Assembly (NCBI RefSeq): GCF_001633105.1
Contig: NZ_LUKZ01000019.1
Span: 62,249-126,248 of the forward strand
DNA length: 64,000 nucleotides
DNA from: Acidovorax sp. GW101-3H11
GTDB lineage: Bacteria > Pseudomonadota > Gammaproteobacteria > Burkholderiales > Burkholderiaceae_C
Direction: 5' to 3'
In this document: positions 43,673 through 62,286 of the stretch, one piece after another
Numbering within the stretch: position 1 is the stretch's first letter
Layout of the letters: each line of letters begins with the position of its first letter
Program-made: the position numbers and the translations under genes
The notes under the pieces: model-generated
Seen by the model: only the letters and a program-made list of their open reading frames with translations
What the model was told of the DNA's origin: nothing
Database searches by the model: none

Positions 43673-43723
43673 ACAGCCAGCGATTGTAGGGTTGCGCGTT
43701 GTAAACGGTCGTAAAATCCCGCC

Positions 43724-43940: not shown

Positions 43941-44028
43941 CGTGCGCCCTTTTTTGGGCGCTGCGCGGCTGTATCACCCACATGCTGGCGGGAGGCCGGC
44001 CCCGGGTTGTTTGTTGACGATGATCCCC

Positions 44029-46054: not shown

Positions 46055-47416
46055 GTGACACGCTGTCCCGCGCTGCTGATCGCCGCCCCGGCTTCGGGCC
46101 AGGGCAAGACCACCGTCACCGCCGCCCTGGCGCGCTTGCATGCGCGCCAGGGGCGGCGCGTGCGGGTCTTCAAGTGCGGGCCGGATTTTCTGGACCCGCA
46201 CTGGCACCAGCTGGCCAGCGGTGCGCCCGTGCACCAGCTCGACCTGTGGATGAATGGCGCGGCGGACTGCGCGCAGCGCCTGCATGAGGCTGCGGGTGAT
46301 GCGGACCTGATCCTCATCGAAGGCGTGATGGGTCTGTTTGATGGCAGCCCCAGCGCGGCCGACCTGGCCCGGCACTTTGGCGTGCCCGTGCTGGCCGTGG
46401 TCGATGCCTCGGCCATGGCGGGCACGTTTGGTGCGCTGGCGTTTGGCCTGCGCCACTACCGTCCCGGCCTGCCCTGGGCGGGTGTGTTGGCCAACCGCGT
46501 GGGCAGCGCACGCCACGCCGACATGCTGCGGGACGGCCTGCAGGATGCCGACGACTGGATGGGCGCACTGATGCGGGTGCAGGCCACCGGCAATGCGCCC
46601 GCTGCCGCCAAGGCGGCTGCCGCATTGCTGCCCGAGCGCCACCTGGGCCTGGTCGCCGCGCACGAGCTGGACGACAGCCTGCAGCGGCTGGACGCTGCCG
46701 CCGACGCTCTGGCCGCCACGCCGCTGGGCCAGATGGACCTGGACGACCTGCAGTGCTGGGCGGTGGACTTCCCGGCGCCCGCATCAGCGCCCGCCGTGCC
46801 ACGCCTGCTGGCAGGCCGCACGGTGGCCGTGGGGCGCGATGCGGCGTTCTGCTTCATCTACGCCGCTAACGTGCAGTGCCTGGAGCAGATGGGAGCGCGC
46901 GTGGAGTTCTTCTCGCCACTGCACGATGCCGCGCTGCCCGATTGCGATGCGGTGTGGCTGCCCGGCGGCTACCCCGAGCTGCACACCGCACAGATAGCGG
47001 TCAACACCGGCATGCAAACTAGCCTGCGCGCCCATGCGGCCGCAGGCAAGCCCCTGTGGGCCGAGTGTGGCGGCATGATGGCGTTGTTTGAATCCATCAC
47101 CCTGGCCGACGGCAACACAGCCCCGCTGTGGGGGCTGTTGCCAGGCCATGTGACCATGCAAAAGCGCCTGGCGGCGCTGGGCCCGCAGCAACTGGCGGTG
47201 GCGGGGCACATGTTGCGCGGCCACACCTTTCACTATTCGACCAGCGACAGCAGCGCCCCCGTGGTGGCCCGCACGGCGCGCCCGAACGAGGCGGTTGCGC
47301 CGGATGCGGGCGAGGCGCTGTACCGGCAGGGCAGCATCCATGCCAGCTACTTCCATGCGTGGTTCCCGTCCAGCCCCGAAGCCGTGGCGCATTTGCTGGG
47401 GGGCGCATCGGTATGA
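46055..47416 (+). CDS. cobB: Cobyrinate a,c-diamide synthase
   Basis: Amidates cobyrinate at the a and c side chains with ATP and glutamine. It has 453 residues: an N-terminal dethiobiotin-synthetase-like ATPase domain (APASGQGKTTVTAALARLH, residues 10-28; VMGLFDGSPSAADLARH) and a C-terminal type-3 glutamine amidotransferase domain with nucleophile Cys in WAECGGMMALFE and the WLPGGYPELH strand. It starts with GTG. The stop overlaps cobU (ATGA). Confidence 0.94.
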   Translation: MTRCPALLIAAPASGQGKTTVTAALARLHARQGRRVRVFKCGPDFLDPHWHQLASGAPVHQLDLWMNGAADCAQRLHEAAGDADLILIEGVMGLFDGSPSAADLARHFGVPVLAVVDASAMAGTFGALAFGLRHYRPGLPWAGVLANRVGSARHADMLRDGLQDADDWMGALMRVQATGNAPAAAKAAAALLPERHLGLVAAHELDDSLQRLDAAADALAATPLGQMDLDDLQCWAVDFPAPASAPAVPRLLAGRTVAVGRDAAFCFIYAANVQCLEQMGARVEFFSPLHDAALPDCDAVWLPGGYPELHTAQIAVNTGMQTSLRAHAAAGKPLWAECGGMMALFESITLADGNTAPLWGLLPGHVTMQKRLAALGPQQLAVAGHMLRGHTFHYSTSDSSAPVVARTARPNEAVAPDAGEALYRQGSIHASYFHAWFPSSPEAVAHLLGGASV

Positions 47417-48000
47417 CCATCACCACCGAGCTGATCCTGGGCGGCCAGAAAAGCGGCAAGTCCCGCCGTGCCGAGCTGCTGGCGCGCGACTGGCTGGCGC
47501 AGTCCGCCGATCACCGCGCGGTGCTGATCGCCACCGGTGAAGCCTGGGACGACGAAATGCGCGAGCGCATCGCCCGCCACCAGCGCGACCGCGCCGAGCG
47601 CGTGCCCGGCCTGCAGACGGTTGAAGAGCCGCACGACGTGGCCGCAGCGATCACGCGGCTCAGCACACCGCAGACCCTGCTGGTGGTGGACTGCCTGACG
47701 CTGTGGCTCACCCACTGGAGCATGCCCCTGGGTGTGGAAGCCATGAATTTTGAACAAAAACAGGCCCTTGCGCGCGACTGGCAAGCGCAAGCAGCTATGT
47801 TTTTAGGAGCGGTTCGGAAATCCCCCGGCCCCGTTGTTCTGGTGGGCAACGAAATTGGCCTGGGGGTCATCCCGATGGGGCGCGAGGTGCGCGCCTTTGT
47901 GGATGCGCTGGGCACGCTCAACCAGCAGGTGGCCCAGGCCTGCCCCCGCGTCACGCTCATGGCCGCCGGGCTGCCCCTCACTTTGAAAGAAACTCGCTGA
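47413..48000 (+). CDS. cobU: Adenosylcobinamide kinase / guanylyltransferase
   Basis: Phosphorylates adenosylcobinamide and transfers GMP, preparing it for the lower ligand. It has 195 residues: P-loop GGQKSGKSRRAELL near residue 10, the guanylylated His in RIARHQRDRAERVP, and VDCLTLWLTHW. Between residues about 110 and 132 a stretch (NFEQKQALARDWQAQAAMFL) is encoded by a dispersed repeat that also occurs between genes; it lies in a variable loop, so activity is probably kept. Overlaps on both sides place it in the operon. Confidence 0.93.
   Translation: MTITTELILGGQKSGKSRRAELLARDWLAQSADHRAVLIATGEAWDDEMRERIARHQRDRAERVPGLQTVEEPHDVAAAITRLSTPQTLLVVDCLTLWLTHWSMPLGVEAMNFEQKQALARDWQAQAAMFLGAVRKSPGPVVLVGNEIGLGVIPMGREVRAFVDALGTLNQQVAQACPRVTLMAAGLPLTLKETR
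47744..47807 (+). repeat. Dispersed AGCTATC-type repeat, copy 7, inside cobU
   Basis: An in-frame intragenic copy: AATTTTGAACAAAAACAGGC, CTTGCGCGCGACTGG, and GCAAGCAGCTATGTTTTTAG. It closely matches the intergenic copy near 25.95 kb. Confidence 0.8.
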
Positions 48001-48902
48001 TGAAACCCACCCCCGTGCGCCGCATCCTGTGGGTGATCGCCATCCTGGTGCTGCTGGGCCTGCTCATGGCCGGGCTGGCGCGTGCGCAGCCCGTGCACAT
48101 CAAGGATGACAAGGGCCGCGAGGTCTCGCTGCCCCGCCCCCCGCAGCGCATCGTGAGTCTGCTGCCCTCGCTGACCGAAAGCGTGTGCGAGCTGGAGCAA
48201 TGCCATCGCCTGGTGGGGGTGGACCGCTATTCCAACTGGCCCGAGGCCGTGATCGGCAAGCTGCCCAAGGTGGGCGGCGGCATCGACCCGAGCATCGAGG
48301 CCATCGTGGCGCTCAAGCCCGATGTGGTGCTGATGTCCGTCAGCTCGCGCGCCAGCGACCGGCTGGAGGCGCTGGGCCTCACCGTGGTGCAGCTGGAGCC
48401 CAAGACCCATGCCGATGTGCGCCGCGTGCTGGGCACCGTGAGCGACCTGCTGGGCGTGCCCCGCGCACAGGGCGCTGAACGCCTCTGGCGCGTGATCGAC
48501 GCGGGCGTGCTGGCGGCGGCCCAGTCCCTGCCGCCCAAGGCGAAAAATGCGCGCGTGTACTTCGAGGTGAGCCGGGGGCCGTATGCGGCGGGCGAGGCCT
48601 CGTTCATCGGCGAATCGCTCACCCGGCTGGGCGTGCGCAACGTGGTGCCCGCGTCGCTGGGCCCGTTTCCGCGCCTGAACCCCGAGTTTGTGGTGCGCGC
48701 CAATCCCGACATCATCATGATCGGCAACCGCAGCATGCAGGCCATGGTGCCGTACCCCGGCTGGGCCACGATGCGCGCCATCCGTGAGAACCGGCTGTGT
48801 GTGTTTGGCCCCGGCGATTCCGACGTGGTGGTGCGCCCCGGCCCGCGCATGGCCGAAGCCGCGCGCATCATGGCGCGCTGCCTGGTGGACAAGGCCCCAT
48901 GA
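48000..48902 (+). CDS. btuF: Periplasmic cobalamin-binding protein, BtuF-like
   Basis: A 300-residue substrate-binding protein of the class III (vitamin B12/iron-siderophore) type. It has a signal peptide (hydrophobic core residues 9-26, cleavage after ARA), the PQRIVSLLPSLTESVCEL motif typical of BtuF, and a second lobe from about residue 165. It delivers corrinoids to the permease encoded next. The start overlaps the cobU stop (TGATG). The ligand is inferred from the operon. Confidence 0.9.
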   Translation: MKPTPVRRILWVIAILVLLGLLMAGLARAQPVHIKDDKGREVSLPRPPQRIVSLLPSLTESVCELEQCHRLVGVDRYSNWPEAVIGKLPKVGGGIDPSIEAIVALKPDVVLMSVSSRASDRLEALGLTVVQLEPKTHADVRRVLGTVSDLLGVPRAQGAERLWRVIDAGVLAAAQSLPPKAKNARVYFEVSRGPYAAGEASFIGESLTRLGVRNVVPASLGPFPRLNPEFVVRANPDIIMIGNRSMQAMVPYPGWATMRAIRENRLCVFGPGDSDVVVRPGPRMAEAARIMARCLVDKAP

Positions 48903-49933
48903 CCAGCGTTCCCGTGGACCTGCCCACTGGCTCCGCCACCCGCCGCGCCGCATGGTGCGCTGCCTGGCTGCTGCTGGCCAGCGCCGTGCTGACCGTGTGT
49001 GGCGCCAGCGTGGGCAGCACGGGTTTTGACAGCGTGCTGCGCATGCACGGCGACCCCGTGGCCTGGCAGATCGTGTGGGACATCCGTTTGCCGCGCACGC
49101 TGGGCGCGTGGCTGGCGGGTGCGCTGCTGGGCCTGTCGGGCGCGGTGGCGCAGGGGCTGTTCCGCAACCCGCTGGCCGACCCGTACCTGCTGGGCAGCGC
49201 CTCCGGCGCCGCGCTGGGCGGGGCGGTGGCCATGGCGATGTTCGGCGTGTCACCGGTGGCCGCGCAGTGGCTGGCGCGCATCGGTATCACGGGCATGGCC
49301 TTTCTGGGCGCGGCGGGGGCTGTGGTGCTCACGCTGATCCTGGCCCGGGGCGTGCAGCACACGCTGCGCCTGCTGCTGGCGGGCGTGATCGTGGGCGTGG
49401 TGCTGGGCGCTATGCGCGATCTGGTGGAGCTGGCCTCGCCCGACATCCTGCAGGCCATGCAGGCCTTTGTGCTGGGCAGCACGGCCTTTGTGGGCTGGAT
49501 GGCCTGTGTGCTCATGGCCGTGGCCTGGGGGCTGTGCTCGGCGGTCGCCTGGATGCTGGCGCGTGCGCTCGACGGCCTCACGCTGGGCGAGGCCACGGCC
49601 GCCAGCCTGGGCCTGCCGCTGTTGCCCATGCGCGCCGGGCTGGTGGCCGCCATGGCGCTGGCCACGGGGGCGGCGGTGGCGCAGACGGGGCTCATCGCCT
49701 TTGTGGGGCTGGCGGCACCCCACCTGGTGCGCTCCATCGTGCGCGTGACGCACGAGCGGCACATCGTGCTCTCCAGCCTGATGGGTGCGGTGCTGCTCAT
49801 GGCAGCCGACATTCTGGCGCGCTGGCTGCTGGCGCCGCAGGAGCTGCCCGTGGGCGTGCTCACGGCGGCGCTGGGCGGCACCTACCTGCTGTGGCTCATG
49901 CACCGGCGCACGGCGCAAGGCGGTGCGCTATGA
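48899..49933 (+). CDS. btuC: FecCD/BtuC-type ABC transporter permease
   Basis: A 344-residue inner-membrane permease with about ten TM helices. Family markers are RLPRTLGAWLAGALLGLSGA, NPLADPYLLGSASGAALGG, and the ATPase-contact and late region FVGLAAPHLVRSIVRVTHER, ending with LPVGVLTAALGGTYLLWL. It overlaps the BtuF-like gene by four bases and the ATPase by four, so the three form one transporter, presumably for corrinoids. Confidence 0.92.
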   Translation: MTSVPVDLPTGSATRRAAWCAAWLLLASAVLTVCGASVGSTGFDSVLRMHGDPVAWQIVWDIRLPRTLGAWLAGALLGLSGAVAQGLFRNPLADPYLLGSASGAALGGAVAMAMFGVSPVAAQWLARIGITGMAFLGAAGAVVLTLILARGVQHTLRLLLAGVIVGVVLGAMRDLVELASPDILQAMQAFVLGSTAFVGWMACVLMAVAWGLCSAVAWMLARALDGLTLGEATAASLGLPLLPMRAGLVAAMALATGAAVAQTGLIAFVGLAAPHLVRSIVRVTHERHIVLSSLMGAVLLMAADILARWLLAPQELPVGVLTAALGGTYLLWLMHRRTAQGGAL

Positions 49934-50724
49934 ATTCAATAGCTATAAAGGCTTTCCAGATAGGCGCAAGCATCGGAAATCGCTTGATATTGCAGGGCAT
50001 TGACCTGCAACTGCCCGCGGGGCGCTGGACCAGCATCGTCGGCCCCAATGGCGCGGGCAAGTCCACCTTGCTCAAGGTGCTGGCGGGCCTGCTGCCGCGC
50101 GCAGCCGTGCAGGGCGAGGTGCAGTTGCTGGGCCGCCCGCTGGCGCAGATCCCCGCGCGCGAACGCGCCCGTCAGCTCGCCTGGCTGGGCCAGAACGAAG
50201 GCTCGGCCGACGACCTCACAAGCTACGACGTGGCCATGCTCGGCCGCCTGCCGCACCAGGCCTGGCTGGCCCCGCCCGGCGCGGCCGACCACGCAGCCGT
50301 GGAGCAGGCGCTGCGCACCACGCAGGCCTGGGACTGGCGCCACCGCCCGCTGTCGCAACTGTCGGGCGGCGAGCGCCAGCGCGTGCTGCTGGCCCGCGCG
50401 CTGGCCGTGCAGGCGCAGGTGCTGCTGATGGACGAACCCCTGGCCAACCTCGACCCCCCGCACCAGACCGACTGGCTGCACACCATGCGTGCGCTGGTCG
50501 AAGCGGGCGGCACAGTGGTCAGCGTGCTGCATGAGGTGTCGCTCGCGCTGCAGGCCGACGACATGGTGGTGATGGCGAATGGCCGCGTGCTGCACCAGGG
50601 CGCGTGCGGCGCACCCGCCACCCACGCGGCGCTGGAAGAGGTGTTTGACCACCGCATCCAGGTGCGGCACCTCGATGGCCTGTGGATGGCGCTGCCATCG
50701 CTGCAACGCCAGAACAAACAATGA
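49930..50724 (+). CDS. btuD: BtuD/FecE-type ABC transporter ATPase
   Basis: A 264-residue ATPase: Walker A GPNGAGKSTLLK near residue 38, signature LSGGERQRVLLARAL near 142, Walker B VLLMDEPLANLD, and the switch His in VLHEVSLAL. It powers the adjacent permease. The first 20 or so residues (MNSIAIKAFQIGASIGNRL) are encoded by a copy of the dispersed repeat, which has apparently replaced the normal first strand. Confidence 0.93.
   Translation: MNSIAIKAFQIGASIGNRLILQGIDLQLPAGRWTSIVGPNGAGKSTLLKVLAGLLPRAAVQGEVQLLGRPLAQIPARERARQLAWLGQNEGSADDLTSYDVAMLGRLPHQAWLAPPGAADHAAVEQALRTTQAWDWRHRPLSQLSGGERQRVLLARALAVQAQVLLMDEPLANLDPPHQTDWLHTMRALVEAGGTVVSVLHEVSLALQADDMVVMANGRVLHQGACGAPATHAALEEVFDHRIQVRHLDGLWMALPSLQRQNKQ
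49931..49990 (-). repeat. Dispersed AGCTATC-type repeat, copy 8, at the 5' end of the btuD-like gene
   Basis: A reverse copy covering the start of the gene: TTCAATAGCTATAAAGGC, GGCGCAAGCATCGG, and CGCTTGATATTGCAG. It is more diverged than copies 6 and 7. Confidence 0.5.
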
Positions 50725-50753: not shown

Positions 50754-51221
50754 ATGAACATTGAATCGGGTTTTGCGCAGGTCGCGCAGTCGCTGCTCTG
50801 GCCGGTGCTGGTGCTGGTGGGGCTGGCGTTTGTCTACGCGCTGTGGGCGGGTGGTGCCACGCTGATGGAAGCATGGCAGCGCTGGCGCCAGCCGCAGTAC
50901 CGCTCGCTGCGCGTGCTGCCTGGGCTGTCGATGGAAGAGCTGGAGCTGCAGCTGGTGCGCCAGGTCGAGCCCGTGCGCCTGCTCAGCCGCCTGTCGCCCA
51001 TGCTGGGGCTGATCGCCACGATGATCCCGCTCGGCCCCGCGCTGCAGAGCGTGGCGGCTGGCAACGGTCAGCAGGCGCTGGCCGTGTTCAGCGGCGCGTT
51101 TGCAGGGGTGGTGCTGGCGCTGGCGGCCGCGTCGGTGGGCCTGGTGGTGTATTCGGTGCGCCGTCGCTGGCTGCTGGCCGAACTGCTGGTGGTGCGCAAG
51201 GAGCGCGGGGTGGCGCAATGA
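50754..51221 (+). CDS. MotA/TolQ/ExbB-like proton channel protein
   Basis: A 155-residue inner-membrane protein with three TM helices (about residues 12-33, 85-103 and 112-135). It matches the ExbB/TolQ core: the helix pair around LLSRLSPMLGLIATMIPLG and FSGAFAGVVLALAAASVGL. It is shorter than ExbB (about 240) and lacks the long cytoplasmic domains. It is followed by a DUF2149 gene with a four-base overlap and then a CobN-like gene, so it is likely the channel half of a proton motor serving that protein (inference). Confidence 0.83.
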   Translation: MNIESGFAQVAQSLLWPVLVLVGLAFVYALWAGGATLMEAWQRWRQPQYRSLRVLPGLSMEELELQLVRQVEPVRLLSRLSPMLGLIATMIPLGPALQSVAAGNGQQALAVFSGAFAGVVLALAAASVGLVVYSVRRRWLLAELLVVRKERGVAQ

Positions 51222-51586
51222 CTTTGAAGCACCTGAATGTGCTGGCCGAGGACGACGACGACCCGATGCTGTCCGCCGTGAACCTGGTGGATGTGTTCCT
51301 GGTGCTCGTGGTGGCGCTGCTCACGGCCGTGGCGGTGCAGACCCAGACCAGCGCCAATGAAAGCGTCACCATCATCCGCAACGCGGGCCAGCCCGACATG
51401 GAGGTGGTGGTGCGCGAGCAGGGCAAGGAGGTGCGCTTCAAAGGCGCGGGCAGCGCAGCGCAAGGGCAGGGCGTGCGTGCAGGCGTGGCCTACAAGCTCG
51501 AAGACGGCAACATCGTCTACATCCCCGAAACCGGTGTGGCGCCTGCAGACGCGGGCGCTGGCGCGGCCGACCCCGCCAAGCCATGA
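51218..51586 (+). CDS. DUF2149 family protein, ExbD-like
   Basis: A 122-residue protein with one TM helix (about residues 18-38). NLVDVFLVLVVALL parallels the ExbD/TolR helix with its proton-carrying Asp. A periplasmic domain (about 50-105) follows: DMEVVVREQGKEVRFKG, then YKLEDGNIVYIPE. DUF2149 proteins are found with ExbB-like and CobN-like genes in other prokaryotes. By layout and by the Asp in the helix I read it as the ExbD partner of the preceding protein. It overlaps the CobN-like start by four bases. Confidence 0.82.
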   Translation: MTLKHLNVLAEDDDDPMLSAVNLVDVFLVLVVALLTAVAVQTQTSANESVTIIRNAGQPDMEVVVREQGKEVRFKGAGSAAQGQGVRAGVAYKLEDGNIVYIPETGVAPADAGAGAADPAKP

Positions 51587-54500
51587 AGGCGCTGATTCTG
51601 CGCACGGCACTGTGGTGCCTGCTGCTGGCCGCGCCACTGGTGCACGCAGCTCAGTCTGCGCCCGTGCTGCTCTGGCTCACCTCCGACATCACCACCGCCC
51701 CGCGCACCGCCATGGTGCAGCGTTTGGCCGCCGAGGCGGGCCTGGGTTTTGCGCACATCGACTATCCGCTGGGTGGCCCAGCGGTGCTGGACGTGGCCCA
51801 GGCCCAGAAGCTGGAGCGCGCGCTGGCGGGTGCCGCCATGGTGTGGGTGGATGCGCCGCATGCGAGCGTGGAGGCACGCCTGCGCCGCATGGCGGGGCCG
51901 CAGCTCGATGCGCGGGCTGCGCGCACCCCTGGTCGCGTGGTCTGGGTGCCTGCGGGCACGCCCGCAGTTGACCTGTCTGCGCTGGACGCTTCCGCCCGCA
52001 TGGTGGCCTATCTGCAGGCGGGCGGCCCGCGCAATCTGAAGAACGCCATCGTCCTGGCGCGCGCCACGGTGGCGGGTGTTGCGATGCCGACCTTGCCTGC
52101 ACCCGACATCCTGCCCCCCCGGGGCATCTACCACCCCGACGCGCCCCGCCTGCTGCCCAACGCCGCCGCGCTGGAGGCCTGGCGCCAGGGCCAGCCCGCG
52201 CTGCGCAGCCTGCCCGCCGTGGCCGTGCTGGTGCACCGCCACCATTTCATCGACGGCAGCACCGAATGGCTCGATGCCTGGCTGCGCACTTTCCGCCAGC
52301 AGGGCCTGTTCGCCTATGCCGCCTTTGGCCAGCAGGTCACGGCGCAGACGCTGGCCGAGGTGCTGGAGCTGCCCGCTGAACCAGGCACTGGCCCCGGCCG
52401 CCTGCATGCCTCCGCCCTGATGCTGCACCAGCTCGTGCCCCAGGCCGCCGCGCTGCAGCCGCTGCTGGCGCGCTGGGGCGTGCCGCTGCTGGGCACGCAG
52501 CCTTACCGCGCGGGCGATGCGGCAGCGTGGGAGGCCAGCGACACGGGCCTGTCGCTGTCCGACGTGCCGTTCTACCTGGCGCAGCCCGAGGCGGCGGGTG
52601 CCATCGACCCGGTCCTGGTCGTTGCCCATGGTGCAGAGGGCAAGGACTTCCGCCTCATCGACCGCCAGGCCCAGGCCGTGGCCGCCAAGGCGCGGCGCCT
52701 GATAGCGCTGCAGACGAAGCCCGCTGCCGAAAAGCGCCTGGTGGCCATGGTCTACAACTACCCGCCGGGCGGCACCAATTTCGGTGCATCGTTCCTCAAC
52801 GTGCCGCGCAGCCTGGAGCAGGTGTCCGGCGGCCTGGCCCAGGCGGGCTACCGCACGCAGCAGGTGCCCGAGCAGGGCTGGATCGATGGGCTCAAGCCGC
52901 TGCTGGCTGCCTATTACCCCGGCGCCGATGTGCGCGCGCTGCTGCAAAGCGGCCAAGCCGCCGCGCTGCCGCTGGCGCGCTACGAGCAGCACCTGGCCAC
53001 CTTGCCCCAGGCCGTGCGCGACCGCATGAACGCGCATTGGGGCCCGCCCGCAAAGAGCCGCTACGTGGTCGATTGGCAGGGCGAAAAAGTGTTCGCCATC
53101 CCGCGCTTGCAGGTGGGACAGCTGGCCGTGCTGCCCCAGCCCCCACGCGAGGAAACGCTGCGCCTGGGCCAGAACCCGTTCATGCACAAGAGCAAGGCGC
53201 CGCTGTCGCACCACTACCTGGCGGTGTACCTGTGGGCGCAATTGGAGGCCGACGCGCTCATCCACTTTGGCACCCACGGCACGCAGGAATGGGCCGGTGG
53301 CAAGGCGCGCGCGCTGGATGTGCACGACGACGCGCTGCTGCCGCTCGGCGATCTGCCGGTGGTCTACCCCTACATCGTGGACAACCTGGGCGAGGCCCTC
53401 ACGGCCAAGCGCCGGGGCCGCGCCGTGCTGGTGAGCCACCGCACGCCGGTGTTCGCCCCGGCGGGCTTCGAGGCGCGCATGGCCCACATGCACGAGGTGA
53501 TGCACGAGTGGGAAACCGTGGACGAAGGCCCCACGCGCCGTGCACTCGAAAAGCAGCTGGTGGCGCAGTTTGTGGAGCACCAGCTGCACCGCGACCTGGG
53601 CTGGAGCGCCGCGCGCATCGCGGCCGACTTCAGCGGTTTCCTCGAAATCCTGCACCCCTACCTGGACCAGCTCGCACAAAGCTCGCAGCCCAAGGGTCTG
53701 GCCGTGTTCGGCCGCGTGCCCGCGCCCGAGCAGCGGCGAGAGACCATCCTGCAGGCGCTGCGCAAGCCGCTCATAGAGGCGCTGGGTGAAGACATCGACG
53801 AAGCCTTCCTCATCAAGCACGATGCCGTGCTGGCCGCACGCCCCGCGCGCTGGCTGGAAGTGGCATTGAAGGACGCCGAGGCCGCAAGCAGGCTGGACCT
53901 GCGCCCCGCGCTGCCCGCGCAGGCAGCAACGCCGGGCACGGCGGGGGCATCCGACGTGGTGCGTGCCGAAGACCATGTGCCCAACCGTGCCGCGCGCAAA
54001 CCCATCGACACCCCCGCGCTGCTGAAACTCGCGCAGCGCGCGCAGGAGCTGGAGCGCCTGCTGGCCACGGAGGGCGAGATGCCCGGCCTGCTGGCGGGGC
54101 TGGAGGGCCGCTACCTGCCCGCAGCCTACGGCGGCGACCCCATCCGCAACCCCGACAGCCTGCCCACGGGCCGCAACCTTACAGGCCTGGACCCCAGCCG
54201 CCTGCCCACACGCCAGGCCTATGCCGTGGCGCAGACGCTGTTCAACGACTGGTTCAAGGACTACCAGGCGCGCCATGGTGGCCAGGCGCCAGAGCGCATG
54301 GCGCTGTCGCTGTGGGCGGGTGAAACGCTGCGCCACCAGGGCATCATGGAAGCCCAGGCGCTGGTGGCGCTGGGCATGCGCCCGGTGTGGGACGACGCGG
54401 GCCGCCCGGTGCGCGTGGAGACCATTGCCGCCGATGAACTCAAGCGCCCGCGTGTCGATGTGCTCATGAGCATCACCGGCTCGTACCGCGACCAGTTCCC

Positions 54501-55773
54501 CGCTTTGATGGCGCTGCTCGACCGCGCGGTGGCCCAGGCTGCCACGGCCGATCCCGGCAACGCGATTGCGCGCAACACCGCGCAGATTGGCCAGGAGTTG
54601 CGCAAGCAGGGCGTGCCCCGCGCGCAGGCCGAGCAGCTGGCGCGCGTGCGCGCCTTCGGCAACGCGGTGGGCGACTACGGCACCGGCCTGTCGGACGCGG
54701 TGCAAAGCGACGGCCTGCAAACCAACGATGCGCGCTTGGGCCAGATGTTCCTCGAACGCATGAGCCAGCCTTACCTGGATGGCGAACCCGTGACGGGCGT
54801 GGCGGGCGGCACGGCGGCGAAGGCGCTGGGTGCCCACCTGCGCCGCACCGACGCGGCCATCCTCTCGCGCAGCTCGCACCTGTACGCCATGGTCAGCTCG
54901 GACGACCCGTTCCAGTACCTGGGCGGCCTGTCGGCGGCCGCCCGTGTGGCTGGGCGCAAGCAGGGGCTGGAGCTGCATGTGGCCCAGTTGCAGGACGTGG
55001 GCGAGCCCACCACGGAGACCGCGCAACGCGCCATTGCGCTGGAAATGCAGTCACGCTACCTGCACCCCGGCTGGCTGCAGGCCCAGAAGGCCGAGGGCTA
55101 TTCGGGCACGCTGCAGGTGCTCAAGGCCGTGCAGTTCGCCTGGGGCTGGCAGGCCGTGGCGCCGGACACGGTGCGCAGCGACCACTGGCAAAGTTTTTAC
55201 GACGTGCTGGTGCGCGACAAGCACCAGCTGGGCCTGCCTGAGTGGCTCAAGGAACACCCGCAGGCCTACGCCCAGTCGCTGGAGCGCCTGGTGCAGGCGC
55301 AGCGCCAGGGCTACTGGCAGGCCGATGCCGACACGCAAAAGCAGCTTGCGCAGATGTACCAGGAACTCACACGCGCTGCGCCCCTGGCGGCCGAGCTGCC
55401 GGTCGTGCGCCGCTGGGTGGAGCAGGCTGCGCAGGGCACCCCGGCGGCAGACGCCGCACCCGTGGGCCTGGCCGTGGCCACGCCGCAGTCACCCGCGCTG
55501 CCGCTGCCCGCACCGCCAGCCGCCGACCTGCCTGCACCGCCACCGCAGGCTGAAGCCCCGCCTGCTTTGCCCGCCGTGCCTGCCATGGGTGTGCTGCTGG
55601 AGCGCCAGCCTGAGCGCGAAGCACCCGACGCTGCCCAAGAGCCCAGCCCCGTGGAGCGCATGGCCCACATCGTGGCCCTGCTGGTGATGGCCCTGGTGGT
55701 GCTGGCGGGCGCTGCGTGGCAGGCGCGTCGTCCGTTTTCACTCTCCGCTGCGCCCGGCCTGGCCCGCGCTTGA
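51583..55773 (+). CDS. cobN: Exported, membrane-anchored CobN-like chelatase family protein
   Basis: A 1396-residue protein of the CobN/BchH/HmuS superfamily. Unlike cytoplasmic CobN it begins with a Sec signal peptide ([20 protein letters not shown], cleavage after HAA or VHA) and ends with a Pro-rich stretch (about residues 1305-1345) and one TM helix ([20 protein letters not shown]) plus a short basic tail. The large domain should therefore be periplasmic. The metal-site segment [19 protein letters not shown] is near residue 563. No CobS or CobT AAA+ partners are present; instead ExbB-like and ExbD-like genes precede it. It may insert or remove metal in tetrapyrroles, or process bound cobamides; the reaction is not readable. 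Confidence 0.88.
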
Positions 55774-55802: not shown

Positions 55803-56372
55803 ATGCAGATCGAAACCCCACCCACCGAGAAGCGCTACGAAAAGCCCGAGGGCGAGCGCCGGGGCATCGTCATCGTCAACACCGGCGACGGCAAGGGCAA
55901 AAGCACGGCGGCCTTTGGCCTGGCGCTGCGCGCCCACGGCCGGGGCAAGGCCGTGAAGATTTACCAGTTCATGAAGGTGCCCACGGCGCGGTTTGGCGAA
56001 CACCGCATGTTCGAGCAGATCGGCCTGCCCATCGAGGGCCTGGGCGATGGCTTCAGCTGGAAGAGCAAGGACCTGGAGCACTCGGCCCAGCTCGCGCGCG
56101 ATGGCTGGGAGAAGGCGCGCGCCGCCATCCTGTCGGGTGAGCATTTCCTGGTGGTGTTGGACGAGATCACCTACCCGCTGATCTACGGCTGGCTGCCGCT
56201 CGATGGCGTGCTGCAGACGCTGCGCGATCGGCCCAAGGACGTGCATGTGTGCCTCACCGGCCGCCGCTGCCCGCCCGAGATCATCGAGCTGGCCGACACC
56301 GTGACCGAGATGCAGCTCGTCAAGCACGCGTTCAAGGCGGGCATTCCTGCCCAGCGCGGCATCGAGGACTAG
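55803..56372 (+). CDS. cobO: Cob(I)yrinic acid a,c-diamide adenosyltransferase
   Basis: Transfers the adenosyl group from ATP to the cobalt of corrinoids, making coenzyme forms. It has 189 residues of the CobA/CobO/BtuR family, with the reversed P-loop [20 protein letters not shown] near residue 25, [13 protein letters not shown], and the C-terminal [19 protein letters not shown]. It starts 30 bases after the CobN-like gene. The adenosylated product feeds the assembly genes that follow. Confidence 0.95.
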
Positions 56373-56378
56373 GCCGCC

Positions 56379-57386
56379 GTGTCTGACCACTGGTTTTTGC
56401 TGATCACACCCGCCGGGGGCTGGCCCTTTTTAGCGGTGTGGCTGGGGGTGCCGCTGCTGGCCTTGGCGGTGGACTGGTGGCTGGGCGAGCCACCTGTGGC
56501 CTGGCACCCCGTGGTCTGGATGGGCCAGGCGCTGCAGTGGTCGGGCGACCGGCTGGCGCCCAGCAGCCCCGTGGCCCGGGATTTCAAGGTTTTTTGGCGC
56601 TCTGCGCTTGTCTGGTGTGCCTTGGTAGCTATCGTTTTGATAGTTTCTGGGCTGGCGCAGCACCTGGTGCTGATGCTGCACGGGTTTCTGGCAGCGGCAT
56701 TGCTGGCATTGCTGCTCAAGCCGCTGCTGGCCTGGCGCATGCTGCACGACGAGGTGCTGGCGGTGGAGGTGGCGCTGGGCCAGTCGCTGCCCGCAGGCCG
56801 CGCGCAGCTTGCGCGCCTGGTGAGCCGCGATGTGAGCAGCCTGAGCGCCGTGCAGGTGCGCGAATCTGCCATCGAGTCGCTGGCCGAGAACCTCAACGAC
56901 TCGGTGGTGGCGCCGCTGTTCTGGTTTGCGCTGCTGGGCCTGCCCGGTGCCGCGTTGTACCGCTTTGCCAACACGGCCGACGCCATGTGGGGCTACCCCG
57001 GCATGCGCGGCGGGCGCTACTGGCAGTGGGCGGGCAAGTGGGCGGCGCGGGCGGACGATGTGCTGTCGTGGCTGCCTGCGCGCATCACGGCCCTGCTGCT
57101 GGTGCTGGGCGCCCAGGGCCTGCCGCTGCGCACCCTGGCGCGCCAGGCGCGCAAGACGCCGTCGCCCAACAGCGGCTGGCCCATGGCGGCCATGGCGCTG
57201 GTGCTGGGCGTGCGCCTGGCCAAGCCGGGGGTGTACACGCTGCACGGCAAGGGGCGCAGGGCAGGGCCGCTGGATACGCGGCGGGCCGCGCGGGTGGGCA
57301 CCCGGGTGGTGGTGGCCCTGGTGCCGGTGGTGGCGGCCATCCAGTTGCTGGTGGCCATGGTTTTATCTGCGTGGATGTCCGCATGA
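56379..57386 (+). CDS. cbiB: Adenosylcobinamide-phosphate synthase CbiB/CobD
   Basis: Inner-membrane enzyme joining aminopropanol phosphate to adenosylcobyric acid. It has 335 residues and several TM helices. Family segments include DWWLGEPPVAWHPVVWMG, ESLAENLNDSVVAPLFW and RFANTADAMWGYPGMRGGRY. Residues about 68-91 (FKVFWRSALVWCALVAIVLI) come from a copy of the dispersed repeat, here filling a TM region. GTG start, six bases after cobO. Confidence 0.94.
   Translation: MSDHWFLLITPAGGWPFLAVWLGVPLLALAVDWWLGEPPVAWHPVVWMGQALQWSGDRLAPSSPVARDFKVFWRSALVWCALVAIVLIVSGLAQHLVLMLHGFLAAALLALLLKPLLAWRMLHDEVLAVEVALGQSLPAGRAQLARLVSRDVSSLSAVQVRESAIESLAENLNDSVVAPLFWFALLGLPGAALYRFANTADAMWGYPGMRGGRYWQWAGKWAARADDVLSWLPARITALLLVLGAQGLPLRTLARQARKTPSPNSGWPMAAMALVLGVRLAKPGVYTLHGKGRRAGPLDTRRAARVGTRVVVALVPVVAAIQLLVAMVLSAWMSA
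56580..56648 (+). repeat. Dispersed AGCTATC-type repeat, copy 9, inside cbiB
   Basis: An in-frame copy: GATTTCAAGGTTTTTTGGCG, CTCTGCGCTTGTCTGG, and TGGTAGCTATCGTTTTGATAG. Confidence 0.65.
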
Positions 57387-58483
57387 CAGAGCATGAAATC
57401 ACGCCCGTGTGGGATTCCATTCACGGCGGCCCCGATGCTGCGGGCGTGCCGCTGTTTGATTTTTCAACCAACAGCAACGCCTGTGGCCCCTGTGCGGAAG
57501 CGCGTGAGGCGGTGCAGGCGGCCGACGCCACGCGGTATCCCGATCCGGCGTACACGGCCTTGCGCGAGCGCCTGGCTGCCTTCCACGGCGTGGCACCCGC
57601 CCGCATCGTGCTGGCGGCCAATGCCAGCGAATTCATCCACCGCATCACCGCGCTGGCGGCGCAGCAGGGTGTGGTGCAGGTGGCCCTGCCTGCGCACAGC
57701 TATGGCGACTATGCCCAGGCCGCACAGGTGCGCGGGCTGGGCTTGGTGCGAGGTGGCGATGCGGCGGCGGGCCTGCAGTGGGCGTGTGAACCTTCCAGCC
57801 CCTTGGGCCTGGCCGACCCGGCGGTGCGGGCCTGGCAGCAGCAGGGTGTGGAGTGTGGTGGTGACGATGCAGCCGGTGTGCTGCGGGTGCTTGACTGCGC
57901 CTATGTGCCCCTGCGCCTGGGCCCTGAGGGCGCGTGGACAGGCACGCCGCCTGCGCAATTGCCATCGGCCTGCTGGCAGCTGTGGACCCCCAACAAGGCC
58001 CTGGGGTTGACCGGTGTGCGTGCCGCCTACGCCATTGCGCCCGCTGGCAGCGAGGAGCTGGTGCGCGCGCTGGTGGCCCTGGCGCCGTCGTGGCCGGTGG
58101 GGGCGCATGGCGTGGCCTTGCTGCAGGCCTGGGTGTTGCCCGTGGTGCAGCAATGGCTGGTGTACAGCCTCTCCACCCTGCGCGAGTGGAAGTCGCGCCA
58201 GCAGGCGCTGTGCTTGGACCTGGGCTGGGCGGTGCACGCGGGCAGCCTGGCCAACTACTTTTGCGCGCAGCCTGTCAGCACGTCGTTGCGGAACGACCTG
58301 GCGGCCTTGCGCGCAGCGGGCATCAAGCTGCGCGATACCACCTCGTTCGGGCTGCCGGGCAGCGTGCGCCTGGGGGTGCTGGCGCCCGCAGCGCAGGATG
58401 CGTTGCGGCAGGCCTGGAGGGCTGTCGCAAGCAGCCGTACCATCGCCGACAGCCATTCAACCGGTTCAAAGGACGCCTTGTGA
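57383..58483 (+). CDS. Threonine-phosphate decarboxylase (CobD/CobC-type aminotransferase fold)
   Basis: A 366-residue PLP enzyme of fold type I, expected to make (R)-1-amino-2-propanol phosphate for the cobalamin nucleotide loop. The PLP Lys lies in WTPNKALGLTGVRAAYA near residue 210. The N-terminus FDFSTNSNACGPC and RYPDPAYTALRERLA match the histidinol-phosphate aminotransferase-like family to which CobD/CobC belong. It overlaps cbiB by four bases. I leave the symbol open because Salmonella cobD and Pseudomonas cobC nomenclature conflict. Confidence 0.88.
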   Translation: MTEHEITPVWDSIHGGPDAAGVPLFDFSTNSNACGPCAEAREAVQAADATRYPDPAYTALRERLAAFHGVAPARIVLAANASEFIHRITALAAQQGVVQVALPAHSYGDYAQAAQVRGLGLVRGGDAAAGLQWACEPSSPLGLADPAVRAWQQQGVECGGDDAAGVLRVLDCAYVPLRLGPEGAWTGTPPAQLPSACWQLWTPNKALGLTGVRAAYAIAPAGSEELVRALVALAPSWPVGAHGVALLQAWVLPVVQQWLVYSLSTLREWKSRQQALCLDLGWAVHAGSLANYFCAQPVSTSLRNDLAALRAAGIKLRDTTSFGLPGSVRLGVLAPAAQDALRQAWRAVASSRTIADSHSTGSKDAL

Positions 58484-59274
58484 GAACCATCACTGTCAAC
58501 CGCTACGTCACGCCGCTGCGCGAAGGCGGCTCCATGCCCGCCATCGTCGAGGGCGACGACCTGGGCACCTACGTGCTCAAGTTCCGGGGCGCAGGGCAGG
58601 GCGTGCGCGCCCTGCTGGCCGAAATGATTGCGGGCGGCATCGCCCGTGCGCTGGGCCTGCCTGTGCCCGAGATCGTGCTGGTGCAACTGGACCCCGCCCT
58701 GGCGCAGACCGAGCCCGACCCCGAGATCCAGGACCTGGTGCGCGCCAGCGGCGGGCTGAACGTGGGGCTGGACTACCTCTCGGGCGCGCTGAATTTCGAC
58801 CCGGCGGTGGATGTGGTGACGGATGACTTCGCCTCGCGCCTCGTGTGGTTTGACGCACTGGTGGGCAATGTGGACCGCACCGCGCGCAACACCAACCTGC
58901 TGATGTGGCACCGCCAGCCCTGGCTCATTGACCATGGTGCGGCGCTGACCTTTCACCATGCGTGGAATGGCGCGGTGGCCCTGCCCGCCAAACCCTTTGC
59001 GCCGATTGCCGACCATGTGCTGCTGGCCCGTGCCACGGCGTTGGCGCAGGTGGATGCCGAGCTGGCCGCACGGCTCACGCCCGAGGTGGTTGCGCACATT
59101 GTTGGCGATGTGCCCGATGAGTTTCTGGCACTGGCCGGTGCCGAGCACACCGAGGGCCCGCTGGCGGCGCCCGCAAGCCACCGCCAGGCTTACGTGGATT
59201 ACTTCTGCGCGCGCCTGGCTGGCCGAGCAACGTGGGTGAATGCCTTGAAGGAGGCTGTCGATGCACGCGCCTGA
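58480..59274 (+). CDS. HipA-like kinase family protein
   Basis: A 264-residue protein with a HipA-type kinase core: DALVGNVDRTARNTNLLM near residues 127-145 fits the catalytic loop, and WLIDHGAALTFHH fits the metal-binding site. It lacks the N-terminal couple domain of true HipA toxins and any HipB antitoxin neighbour. A GTG start overlaps the aminotransferase stop (GTGA), so it is part of the cob operon. It shares 14 bases with the DUF3037 gene that follows; the two are known as a recurrent pair. Substrate unknown. Confidence 0.78.
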   Translation: MRTITVNRYVTPLREGGSMPAIVEGDDLGTYVLKFRGAGQGVRALLAEMIAGGIARALGLPVPEIVLVQLDPALAQTEPDPEIQDLVRASGGLNVGLDYLSGALNFDPAVDVVTDDFASRLVWFDALVGNVDRTARNTNLLMWHRQPWLIDHGAALTFHHAWNGAVALPAKPFAPIADHVLLARATALAQVDAELAARLTPEVVAHIVGDVPDEFLALAGAEHTEGPLAAPASHRQAYVDYFCARLAGRATWVNALKEAVDARA

Positions 59275-59653
59275 GGTCTACGACTACGCCATCGTGCGCG
59301 TGGTGCCGCGCGTGGAGCGCGAGGAGTTCATCAACGCGGGCGTGATCCTGTCGTGCCAGCGCAGCGGTTTTCTGCAGGCCGCCATCGCGCTCGACGAAGC
59401 CCGCCTGCTGGCCATGGACCCGCAGGCCGACATCGACACCGTGCGCCGCCACCTGGCCGCCATCGTCGCCATCTGTGCGGGCGACGATGGCTGTGGCCCG
59501 ATTGCCCGCCTGCCTTACCGCCAGCGCTTTCACTGGCTCACTGCCAAGCGCAGCGCCATCATCCAGACATCCCCCGTGCACACGGGCCGCTGCACCGATG
59601 CGGCAGCGGCGCTTGAACACATCATGGACCGCATGGTTCGCCCTCTGCCTTGA
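59261..59653 (+). CDS. DUF3037 family protein
   Basis: A 130-residue protein starting MHAPEVYDYAIVRVVPRVER, the typical opening of DUF3037, with EEFINAGVILSC and LPYRQRFHWLTAKRSAIIQT. AAGGAGG is placed ideally before the ATG even though that lies inside the HipA-like gene. Function unknown; it is the regular partner of small HipA-like kinases. Its stop overlaps the cobQ start. Confidence 0.83.
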   Translation: MHAPEVYDYAIVRVVPRVEREEFINAGVILSCQRSGFLQAAIALDEARLLAMDPQADIDTVRRHLAAIVAICAGDDGCGPIARLPYRQRFHWLTAKRSAIIQTSPVHTGRCTDAAAALEHIMDRMVRPLP

Positions 59654-61167
59654 CTTCCTCCACCTCTCCCAAACGAGCCCGCTGCGTGATGGTGCTGGGT
59701 ACCACCAGCGGCGCGGGCAAAAGCTGGCTGACCACCGCGCTGTGCCGCTACTACAGCAACCTGGGCCTCAAGGTGGCGCCGTTCAAGGCGCAGAACATGA
59801 GCAACAACGCGCGGGTGGTGGCCAGTGAGACGGGCAGTGGCGAGATCGGCTCTGCCCAGTACTTTCAGGCCCTCGCCGCCCGCGCTGAGCCCGAGGTGCG
59901 CATGAACCCGCTGCTGCTCAAGCCCGAGGCCGACACCCATAGCCAGGTGGTACTGATGGGGCAGGTGAGTGCAGAGCTCACGGCCATGCCCTGGCGCGGC
60001 CGCAGCGAAAAGGTGTGGCCGCAGATAGCGGCTGCGCTCGATGCATTGCGTGCCGAAAACGATGTCGTGGTGATCGAAGGCGCAGGCTCGCCCGCCGAGA
60101 TCAACCTGCACGCCAGCGACATCGTCAACATGCGTGTGGCCCGCCATTCTGAAGCCCGCTGCCTGCTGGTGACCGACATCGACCGGGGTGGCGCGTTTGC
60201 CCACCTGTATGGCACCTGGGCGCTGTTGCCCGAGGATGAGCGCGCACTCATCCACGGCTTTGTGCTCAACAAGTTTCGCGGCGACGCCAGCCTGCTGGCG
60301 CCTGCGCCGCAGATGCTGCAGGAGCTGACCGGTGTGCCCACCGTGGCCACCATCCCCATGCACTGGCGCCATGGCCTGCCCGAAGAAGACGGCGTGTTCG
60401 ATGACCGTACCCTGGTGGCGGGCGCCGTGCACACCACGGTGGCCGTGGTGGCCTACCCGCGCATCAGCAACCTCGACGAGTTCCAGCCGCTGAAGAACGT
60501 GCCCGGCGTGCGCTTGCTGTGGGCGCGCAGCCCGGCGGACCTGGGTGGTTTGAAGCCCACAGACTGGGTGGTGCTGCCCGGCTCCAAGGCCACCGCCGCC
60601 GACCTGGCCTGGCTGCGCGCGCAGGGCCTGGACCAGGCGATTGCCCAGCACGCCGGGCAGGGCGGCACGGTGCTGGGTGTGTGTGGTGGCCTGCAGATGC
60701 TGGGCGAGGCGCTGATCGACACCGCAGGCATCGATGGCAATGCGCCCGGCCTGGGGCTGCTGCCCCTGGTCACCACCTTCGAGGTTGCCAAAACCGTGCA
60801 GCGCACGCAGGCGCAGTTTGGCGCAATGTTGGGCGCGTGGGCGGCGCTGGCTGGCGTGCTCGTCACAGGCTATGAAATCCACCACGGCCAGACGGCCCAG
60901 CACCCGGCCATGGCCGCCAAGGGGGATGTGGCGCGCGAAGTGATCCCGGGCATTGCCTGGCAAAACGCTGCGGGAAATGTGCTGGGCGTGTATCTGCATG
61001 GCCTGCTCGAAGACCCCGCTGTGCTGCAGGCCCTGTTTGGCCGTGGGGGCGCGTCCCCCGTTCCCACGCTCGACGCCGTGTTTGACGGCCTGGCCCGCAT
61101 GGCCGAGGCCAGCTTTTCCCCGGGTGCGCTGCAGGCGCTGATCGCGCCAGATTCCACGGCTGCCTGA
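59650..61167 (+). CDS. cobQ: Adenosylcobyric acid synthase
   Basis: Amidates the b, d, e and g side chains of adenosylcobyrinate a,c-diamide. It has 505 residues: the ATPase domain GTTSGAGKSWLTTALCRYY and KAQNMSNNARV near the N-terminus, and a C-terminal glutamine amidotransferase domain with the nucleophile in VLGVCGGLQMLG near residue 342 and the His in YEIHHGQT. A TTG at 59650 overlapping the DUF3037 stop is the likely start; an internal ATG before MVLGTTSGAGKS would cut the N-terminus too short. Confidence 0.94.
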   Translation: MTSSTSPKRARCVMVLGTTSGAGKSWLTTALCRYYSNLGLKVAPFKAQNMSNNARVVASETGSGEIGSAQYFQALAARAEPEVRMNPLLLKPEADTHSQVVLMGQVSAELTAMPWRGRSEKVWPQIAAALDALRAENDVVVIEGAGSPAEINLHASDIVNMRVARHSEARCLLVTDIDRGGAFAHLYGTWALLPEDERALIHGFVLNKFRGDASLLAPAPQMLQELTGVPTVATIPMHWRHGLPEEDGVFDDRTLVAGAVHTTVAVVAYPRISNLDEFQPLKNVPGVRLLWARSPADLGGLKPTDWVVLPGSKATAADLAWLRAQGLDQAIAQHAGQGGTVLGVCGGLQMLGEALIDTAGIDGNAPGLGLLPLVTTFEVAKTVQRTQAQFGAMLGAWAALAGVLVTGYEIHHGQTAQHPAMAAKGDVAREVIPGIAWQNAAGNVLGVYLHGLLEDPAVLQALFGRGGASPVPTLDAVFDGLARMAEASFSPGALQALIAPDSTAA

Positions 61168-61215: not shown

Positions 61216-62286
61216 ATGCAATCCCTCGCCGCATTCAACGTCCCCGCCATTGCCGACATCTCCGACGCACCATTGACTGCCCGCCTGCAGCACCTGCTTG
61301 ACAACAAGACCAAGCCGTTGGGGTCGCTGGGTCGGCTGGAGGCGTTGGCCTTGCGCATTGGCCAGGTGCTGGGCACCGAGGCCCCCGCGCTGCTGCTGCC
61401 GCAGATGCTGGTGTGCGCGGGCGACCATGGCTTGGCGGCCAAGGGGGTCTCGGCCTTCCCGAGCGACGTGACCTGGCAGATGGTGGAAAACTTTCTGGCC
61501 GGTGGCGCCGCAGTGAGCGTGCTGGCGCGCCAGCACGGGCTGCAGCTCACGGTGGTGGACTGCGGTGTGGCGCGCCCTATTGCACAGCGCGAGACAGCCC
61601 CCGGTGCGCCGCGCCTGCTGGTGCACAAGGTGGCGCCCGGCACGGCCGATGCATCGGTGGGCCCGGCCATGACGGCGGAGCAGTGTGCCCAGGCCATCGC
61701 CAACGGCATGGAGGTAGTGCGTGGCCTGCCGGGCAATGCATTGCTGCTGGGTGAGATGGGCATTGGCAACACCTCGGTGGCATCGCTGCTGCTGGCGCGG
61801 CTGGCTGGGCTGCCGCTGGCCGAGGTGACAGGCGCTGGCACAGGCCTGGACGCAGCAGGCATCGAGCGCAAACGCGCTGTGCTGCAACAGGCGCTGGATG
61901 CCAATGCCGATGCCGCCACGCCGCTGGCCGCCCTGGCTGCGCTGGGGGGTTACGAGGTGGCGACGCTGGTGGGCGCGGTGCTGCAGGCAGCGGCCGAGCG
62001 CCGTGTGATTGTGGTGGACGGCTTCATCACCAGCGCCGCCGTGCTGGTCGCCAGCCGCCTGCAGCCCGCCGTGTTGCAGCGCTGCGTGTTTGCCCACCGC
62101 TCGGGCGAGCGGGGGCACACCCTGATGCTGGCGCAGATGCAGGCCGAGCCGTTGCTGGACCTGGGCCTGCGGCTGGGCGAGGGCTCGGGTGCCGCGTTGG
62201 CCTGGCCGCTGTTGCAGTCGGCTTGCGCGGTGCTGGCCGAAATGGCGAGCTTTGAGTCCGCCGGGGTGGCCACCCAGACGGCCTGA
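61216..62286 (+). CDS. cobT: Nicotinate-nucleotide-dimethylbenzimidazole phosphoribosyltransferase
   Basis: Activates the lower ligand base (such as dimethylbenzimidazole) to its riboside phosphate for the nucleotide loop. It has 356 residues. The N-terminal NKTKPLGSLGRLEALALRI and the catalytic region GEMGIGNTSVASLLLARL with its Glu, plus AGTGLDAAGIERKRAVL, are highly conserved. It ends the cobalamin locus; the next gene is on the opposite strand. The synthase (cobS/cobV) and phosphatase are not seen in this window. Confidence 0.95.
   Translation: MQSLAAFNVPAIADISDAPLTARLQHLLDNKTKPLGSLGRLEALALRIGQVLGTEAPALLLPQMLVCAGDHGLAAKGVSAFPSDVTWQMVENFLAGGAAVSVLARQHGLQLTVVDCGVARPIAQRETAPGAPRLLVHKVAPGTADASVGPAMTAEQCAQAIANGMEVVRGLPGNALLLGEMGIGNTSVASLLLARLAGLPLAEVTGAGTGLDAAGIERKRAVLQQALDANADAATPLAALAALGGYEVATLVGAVLQAAAERRVIVVDGFITSAAVLVASRLQPAVLQRCVFAHRSGERGHTLMLAQMQAEPLLDLGLRLGEGSGAALAWPLLQSACAVLAEMASFESAGVATQTA

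Follow-up and report, generated by a model that had tools for sequence, protein, structure and literature searches.

A B12 riboswitch-controlled operon of Acidovorax carries genes for a predicted exported CobN-class protein with ExbB-like and DUF2149 partners

Three adjoining genes at positions 50754-55773 of a 64,000-nucleotide stretch of Acidovorax sp. GW101-3H11 DNA (the whole stretch is hereafter the window; the source genome, G000 in our survey, spans 5.44 Mb with completeness 100) encode an ExbB-like protein, a DUF2149 protein and a large CobN-class protein that is predicted to be exported and membrane-anchored. This trio is a real module that recurs across Pseudomonadota, and in the window it is preceded by a cobalamin riboswitch. 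Tentatively, and at somewhat short of an even chance, we read the window trio from its sequence as a periplasmic corrin chelatase unit that would be induced by B12 starvation and coupled to the proton-motive force, its likeliest activity being insertion of cobalt into salvaged metal-free corrins.

All three genes lie on the forward strand, the ExbB-like gene (155 residues) at 50754-51221, the DUF2149 gene (122 residues with a single transmembrane helix; PF09919, E 3.3e-23) at 51218-51586 and the CobN-class gene (1396 residues) at 51583-55773, and they overlap by four bases at each junction. The coordinates together with the Pfam and NCBIfam matches thus confirm the arrangement that the original prediction had described. 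The CobN-class product spans positions 2-1089 of the 1090 of PF02514 (CobN-Mg_chel; E 8.7e-259), scores 1486 bits against the NCBIfam model NF004644 'CobN' (cut-off 1248) and carries the HxGxHG motif as HFGTHG, features that identify it as a large subunit of a class I tetrapyrrole chelatase (CobN/ChlH/HmuS).

Our own hydropathy heuristic, used in place of a trained predictor, called a probable Sec signal peptide at residues 1-22 (51583-51648; a hydrophobic stretch and a positively charged n-region) and a C-terminal transmembrane helix at residues 1360-1378 (55660-55716), beyond which the net charge is positive. The same holds for 61 of 62 tails examined, which is what a periplasmic CobN body would give, and the predicted signal and helix support the earlier proposal that the large domain is exported. 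Two further features singled out in that proposal did not hold up, as a His within the tail helix is seen in 1 of the 62 tails, that of the window alone, and the TonB-like Pro-rich linker is not conserved, the 70 residues that precede the helix containing 1 to 22 Pro; neither being general, both were rejected as coupling elements. The NCBIfam name CobN would fit an ordinary cytoplasmic cobaltochelatase subunit misread as exported. Such a reading is very improbable considering the signal, the tail and the position of the protein outside the cytoplasmic CobN proteins, which form one clade with 100% support in the Shimodaira-Hasegawa-like approximate likelihood ratio test (SH-aLRT). It also sits poorly with the partner search: the genome, which holds a single CobN, has no match to CobT (PF06213), as originally claimed, and no real match of the ChlI/D type, the cobaltochelatase model TIGR02442 giving weak matches (best 2e-8, far under its cut-off), with the model of CobS itself outside the search. 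CbiC, an enzyme of corrin-ring synthesis, is likewise missing.

The original prediction had asked for co-occurrence of signal- and tail-bearing CobN proteins with DUF2149 and ExbB-like genes to be tabulated, and this was done in an even set of 398 Pseudomonadota genomes. Pfam DUF2149 was found in 17 genomes, a lower bound since the PF09919 search missed at least one real member (G086), and CobN/BchH in 134; all 17 DUF2149 genomes fall within the 134 (hypergeometric p 4.5e-9, uncorrected for relatedness). We then inspected the surroundings of each of the 17 DUF2149 matches that lie outside the window (L095-L111, in 16 genomes). Every one holds an adjoining ExbB-like gene and a CobN-like gene with a C-terminal hydrophobic helix (hydropathy 1.32-2.87; the CobN of L105 was located by phmmer), and 14 of the 17 CobN proteins have a signal peptide by the heuristic. 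Conversely, the 30 cytoplasmic CobN loci with the highest scores in the 134 genomes gave no call of signal or tail, their tail values reaching 1.27; considering that the exported plasmid CobN of L144 has a value of 1.26, the hydropathy threshold alone is not clean. Four tailless proteins (L191, L192, L193 and L195), which we take to be BchH from their sequence character, were omitted from the counts. L191 and L192 fall beside the cytoplasmic CobN clade in the tree, and L193 and L195 are outside the tree sample.

The three components can also be missing together. Searched with a profile, 312 genomes from a single gammaproteobacterial order yielded 25 full-length B12-type CobN proteins, 22 of which have the tail and are followed within 1.5 kb downstream by ExbB-like and DUF2149 genes. 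A further one, in G657, has the tail, with the ExbB-like/DUF2149 pair on the opposite strand at a distance of about 3 kb; one B12 riboswitch match precedes cobN (partial and weak, 33.4 bits) and another precedes the pair. The remaining two (G174 and G594, of one genus) lack the tail, the ExbB-like gene and the DUF2149 gene within the 19 kb read, a span that leaves room for distant copies. Both keep the receptor, BtuFCD, cobB, cobO and cobQ behind a riboswitch as well as a signal-like CobN N-terminus (read by eye in G594, where the heuristic gave none), and in both the first His of HxGxH is a Tyr. They represent one evolutionary event, not two. The joint absence of the CobN tail, the ExbB-like protein and DUF2149 from this locus in one genus argues that the three may function together. 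An ExbB-like/DUF2149 pair at L190 (3153-4375) stands under its own B12 riboswitch, apart from the cobN of that locus.

The window ExbB-like protein matches PF01618 (MotA_ExbB) at E 0.0049, under the cut-off of that model, and across its family 27 of 29 members match at E<=0.01 (best 8.2e-14), with Thr89 of the GLxxTxxPxG helix invariant in all 29. Its structure model (predicted local distance difference test, pLDDT, 94.5) is a three-helix protein with ExbB/TolQ chains as top Foldseek matches (probability up to 1.00, best E 0.093), and hhalign aligned the family to a two-row ExbB alignment with a probability of 92.6%. The family profile gave no match among PDB sequences at E<=0.01. The PF01618 matches of the family and the ExbB-like fold place the first gene in the MotA/TolQ/ExbB family.

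All 30 DUF2149 members compared share P16, N22, D25, G89 and G97, with Asp25 (bases 51290-51292) lying within the transmembrane helix. By hhalign the family profile, from which six out-of-frame open reading frames drawn in by the iterative search had been removed by hand, aligns with ExbD over the Asp helix at a probability of 78% (E 1.8e-5, score 36.0); none of 60 column shuffles that kept the transmembrane block reached this score, the highest being 25.5. The ExbD model PF02472 itself matches 2 of the 30 members (best 0.0099), and against PDB sequences the profile yields four weak matches, TolR among them at E 0.97. By profile comparison DUF2149 is thus a divergent ExbD, congruent with the original suggestion that its helix mirrors the proton-carrying Asp helix of ExbD, and judging from the models it probably combines an ExbD-type helix with a different periplasmic domain. 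The fold identity of DUF2149 was set aside, as the model is of low confidence and its matches meaningless.

With an ExbB-like and an ExbD-related protein at hand, it may be asked whether these two energise the outer-membrane receptor while CobN works alone. Such a role has been assigned to HmuU and HmuV, described as powering the receptor HmuR (PMC12583661), and PA1924 of Pseudomonas aeruginosa has been read as the ExbD for PA1922 (PMC4542158, PMC9431628). Yet the trio occurs without an adjacent receptor at L143, L027 and L029 (for the latter two, none among the neighbouring genes tested), and the genus without partners keeps its receptor while lacking the CobN tail as well. Moreover, the Geobacter plasmid (L142) has the ExbB-like/DUF2149 pair plus a separate exbB-exbD-tonB set, and G000 contains four ExbD matches. 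We regard this explanation as improbable.

The regulatory setting points to B12. A cobalamin riboswitch (RF00174; cmscan 77.5 bits, E 2.3e-17) at 43709-43944 heads the operon on the same strand as the trio, in agreement with the earlier description of a trio among B12 genes under a B12 riboswitch, and riboswitches are found at other exported-CobN loci as well: in the stretches of 7 of the 17 DUF2149 loci (L095, L105, L106, L107, L108, L110 and L111), at 6 of 6 further betaproteobacterial loci, and at L027, L143, L158, L159, L029, L033, L036, L190, L194 and the Geobacter plasmid. None was detected in the examined stretches of the nine loci L096-L104, at L109 (where the contig ends just upstream), at L144 or at L042 (where the stretch is cut inside cobB). 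At L105 the riboswitch sits on the strand of the trio, about 8 kb further upstream, and a single transcript is an assumption only; at L143 it directly precedes a bare trio. Close relatives of the window CobN stand at 45 loci in a scan of named genomes, the nearest from Acidovorax. In a CobN tree of 48 rows, built by a quick method with a midpoint root and weak deep branches that leave the number of origins unsettled, the rows under riboswitch control occupy three positions: one betaproteobacterial group that includes the window, one gammaproteobacterial group, and L095 together with L142.

A scan for Zur boxes, with a consensus entered by hand, gave one site with at most two mismatches (L103) in 10 non-riboswitch clusters (shuffled mean 0.08 per locus) and two sites, both in L190, in 14 riboswitch-type or related loci; neither result was used. 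Separately, four loci of one clade, and no other locus examined, carry a gene of the ZrgA family, known from zinc uptake (L027 at 8552-9097, L029 at about 8443-9120, also L030 and L043). At L027 and L029 the order is riboswitch and then zrgA-exbB-DUF2149-cobN, and by sequence the ZrgA-family protein of these two loci appears to be a B12-regulated relative of a zinc uptake protein.

Behind the riboswitch of the window follow, all on the forward strand, a BtuB-like TonB-dependent receptor (44014-45912, start chosen by hand; PF00593 5.8e-31, PF07715 2.2e-28), cobB for (hydrogeno)cobyrinic acid a,c-diamide synthase (46055-47416; NF002204 412.5 bits, cut-off 254), a cobU/cobP-like gene (47416-48000; Pfam CobU 6.9e-46) and a btuF-btuC-btuD-like ATP-binding cassette importer (48000-48902, 48899-49933 and 49930-50724; Pfam Peripla_BP_2, FecCD and ABC_tran, the Btu names being taken from context). 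Downstream of the trio lie a cobO adenosyltransferase gene (55803-56372; PF02572 1e-59), cbiB and then a cobD/cobC-like aminotransferase gene (together 56379-58483; TIGR00380 214.8 bits, cut-off 165.9, the aminotransferase match being under cut-off), cobQ (59650-61167) and the phosphoribosyltransferase gene cobT (61216-62286), the last two above the cut-offs of TIGR00313 and TIGR03160. A HipA-like kinase (HipA_2) gene and a DUF3037 gene are lodged inside this B12 operon at 58501-59653, between the cobD/cobC-like gene and cobQ.

CbiC/CobH has no match in G000. All 17 genomes with DUF2149 lack it, while 101 of the remaining 117 with CobN/BchH have it (Fisher p 8e-13, uncorrected for kinship); G086 and G174, both of the exported type and neither with CbiC, are counted among the 117. 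Since 2 of 12 further betaproteobacterial genomes, reached through their loci, do have CbiC, the link between the trio and an absent corrin ring is strong, not absolute, and judging by gene content the host seems unable to build the B12 ring. More widely, late corrin amidation by CobB is often kept without ring synthesis in the 398-genome sample.

To narrow down the likely chemistry, we compared active-site residues. The motif segment at residues 561-570 (53263-53292) includes His565, which aligns with the catalytic His538 of HmuS (PMC12583661); this second His of HxGxHG is essential in HmuS (PMC12583661) and is retained in 24 of 25 exported rows aligned. The exception, L102 (9222-14069, in G193), has ExbB-like and DUF2149 neighbours, but its CobN-like gene has a degenerate or lost motif and stands on a very long branch; it may encode a non-catalytic chelatase relative. 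Further on, the segment SSDDPFQ (residues 1105-1111; 54895-54915) places Asp1108 and Gln1111 at the positions of HmuS His1209 and Glu1212 (LSLDHxxEF in HmuS), so that the HmuS pair is not found in the window protein. The Asp/Gln pair is shared with both cytoplasmic CobN proteins compared and with 12 other exported rows, Asp/Glu occurs in L100, and the metal-site Asp is retained in most exported rows. Going by sequence, the metal-site residues of the window CobN resemble those of the cobaltochelatase and not those of HmuS. As an aside, four proteobacterial exported CobN proteins (L103, L104, L185 and L186) have the HmuS-type His/Glu pair, which makes them candidates for heme or porphyrin de-chelation outside Bacteroidota.

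These residues bear on whether the trio instead strips metal from tetrapyrroles outside the cytoplasm, for instance misbound Zn, Cu or Ni from corrins, in the manner of HmuS with heme. The nearest solved structure by score is indeed HmuS (9d26, 298.7 bits; ChlH 279.1, CobN 276.4), the Zur-controlled PA1922-1925 and the iron-controlled hmu locus are described with the same gene set (PMC4542158, PMC9431628, PMC10434189), and metal-free corrin is reported to bind Cu(II) rapidly (PMC12174906). Nevertheless, Asp/Gln takes the place of His1209/Glu1212, and the Met-rich domain IV insertion of HmuS seems absent by sequence comparison, as 45 residues separate the aligned segments against 170 in 9d26 (the segment ends come from phmmer and are not domain borders) and a single Met is found in the 143 residues of the corresponding region. 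For the heme site at HmuS Met79/His254, the head and neck domains of the window CobN aligned unreliably. Considering also that cobalt is described as hard to take out of a corrin unless the ring is destroyed (PMC6771967), we consider a de-chelatase or metal exchanger unlikely. The original prediction had listed metal removal as an option; for cobalt it is unlikely for the same reason, and since free cobalt would give a ring auxotroph no B12, insertion or a corrin relay is favoured over removal. Insertion is further preferred by the Asp..Gln metal site, as in cytoplasmic CobN and not His..Glu as in HmuS, and by the existence of cobalt-free corrinoids, which some purple sulfur bacteria are reported to make (PMC6771967).

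For insertion, we infer the following route. Metal-free corrins would be taken up by the BtuB-like receptor, and at the periplasmic face of the inner membrane the exported CobN would insert periplasmic Co(II) into them. ExbB-like subunits and DUF2149 may form a proton channel around the Asp helix of DUF2149, proton flow then moving the CobN tail or DUF2149 and so driving an opening-closing cycle, such as the one that CobS/CobT or ChlI/ChlD would drive by ATP in the cytoplasm. The product would be imported by BtuFCD and completed by CobB, CobO, CobQ, CbiB, CobU and CobT. AAA+ ATPases are unusable by a periplasmic enzyme, and a channel of the ExbB/ExbD type, if bound to the CobN tail, could plausibly take the place of the ATP motor. 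The ATP need of class I chelatases is described as not fully understood, with ring distortion and proton removal among the proposals (PMC7689651). Aggregated, the findings suggest that B12 or a precursor is processed outside the inner membrane without ATP.

A relay of corrinoids without any metal chemistry must be weighed against this route: the exported CobN would be a high-affinity corrin binder that takes cobamides or fragments from the receptor side, and proton force would release them to BtuFCD. Riboswitch control and the receptor/BtuFCD context fit uptake, CobN has been reported to co-purify with its substrate (PMC7689651), and the genus without tail and partners keeps cobN in an uptake operon despite the changed motif His. 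A mere binder would however not be expected from the retention of the catalytic His in all but one exported row and of the metal-site Asp in most, nor from a zinc-uptake-type ZrgA-family gene within the B12-regulated trio of one clade. We hold the relay to be possible but rather doubtful.

Several observations weigh against cobalt insertion driven by the proton-motive force. CbiC is present in 2 of 12 further betaproteobacterial trio genomes. CobB was rejected as a marker of the module: it is above cut-off in 10 of the 17 DUF2149 genomes, and CobB without CbiC is common, occurring in 51 of the 398 genomes, of which 37 lack any CobN and only 10 have DUF2149. The periplasmic part of DUF2149 is predicted as all-beta at low confidence (pLDDT 68.5), and no ExbD fold was found in it. 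The partnerless genus retains its cobN gene, and its two rows, with Tyr for the first His of the motif, amount to a single event. Exported CobN proteins that lack a riboswitch can also have the Asp..Gln pair, and in the gammaproteobacterial B12 group the pair is Asp..Asp. Finally, heterologously expressed HmuS is reported to convert heme in an NADH-dependent manner with ATP not required (PMC12583661), and such de-chelation by HmuS expressed alone counts against a strict need for the proton-motive force. The more general proposal, that a proton-driven cobaltochelatase outside the cytoplasm lets ring auxotrophs make cobamides from the metal-free corrins of others, with an ExbB/ExbD-type motor replacing AAA+ proteins, is put forward as a doubtful one. 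If true, a motor of the ExbB/ExbD type would supply the energy for class I chelation, and corrins that lack cobalt would have a salvage route. The findings make two questions testable: can proton force power a class I chelatase, and do ring auxotrophs salvage corrins that carry no metal?

The module itself is already known, from hmuSTUV, PA1922-1925 and a Geobacter plasmid; new are versions of it under B12-riboswitch control, which occupy three positions in the CobN tree, the likeness of the window's metal-site residues to those of cobaltochelatase and not of HmuS, and the placement of DUF2149 as a divergent ExbD, linked with the CobN tail by being present and absent together. In the literature covered, mostly open-access with subscription papers and preprints largely outside, DUF2149 is mentioned in 5 papers, and we found no proton-driven exported CobN, no kinship of DUF2149 and ExbD, and no ring auxotroph described with an exported-CobN trio under a B12 riboswitch. 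Published accounts call the role of HmuT unclear, place HmuV in no known family, and treat the use of chelatase homologues in organisms without the matching pathway as an open matter (PMC12583661, PMC13227078).

Among the published systems, the hmu locus of Bacteroidota (PMC10434189, PMC13227078) has the same gene set around HmuS, as the original prediction had stated and PMC10434189 bears out: a class I chelatase relative, exported and anchored in the membrane, is encoded together with a TonB-dependent receptor, an ExbB-family protein and a DUF2149 protein (HmuT, HmuU and HmuV accompany HmuS). It differs in being iron-regulated and heme-specific, with NADH-dependent iron removal, whereas the window has a B12 riboswitch and cob/btu genes. 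Related BtuS proteins (BtuS1 and BtuS2) are described in Bacteroides (PMC6460266). The Zur-controlled PA1922-PA1925 of P. aeruginosa (PMC4542158, PMC9431628, PMC13083405) likewise unites a TonB-dependent receptor with CobN-like, ExbB/ExbD-annotated and DUF2149 genes in one operon, but belongs to the zinc-starvation regulon, and the available text reports no adjoining B12 genes. Another is the CobN-exbB-exbD-tonB cluster on plasmid pSZ77 of Geobacter (Trichlorobacter) lovleyi (PMC3403914; L142), where CobN-like, ExbB-like and DUF2149 genes stand beside B12 genes without CobS/CobT and with B12 riboswitches upstream; its CobN is on a distant branch, its host carries corrin-ring genes, and in the part of the source available its role is left open and export is unmentioned. 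The cytoplasmic CobNST and CobN-ChlID cobaltochelatases share the homologous large subunit, the catalytic His and the Asp..Gln metal-site residues, but are driven by ATP through AAA+ partners within a full corrin pathway, whereas the window protein has neither a cytoplasmic location (by the heuristic) nor a cognate CobT or ChlI/ChlD (the CobS model lying outside the search). The ExbB-ExbD, TolQ-TolR and MotA-MotB channels have in common with the window an ExbB-like three-helix protein and an Asp-bearing single helix, but DUF2149 seems to have its own periplasmic domain, and the driven part would be a chelatase with a C-terminal membrane anchor. The B12-controlled trio thus joins the published iron- and zinc-controlled versions of this module.

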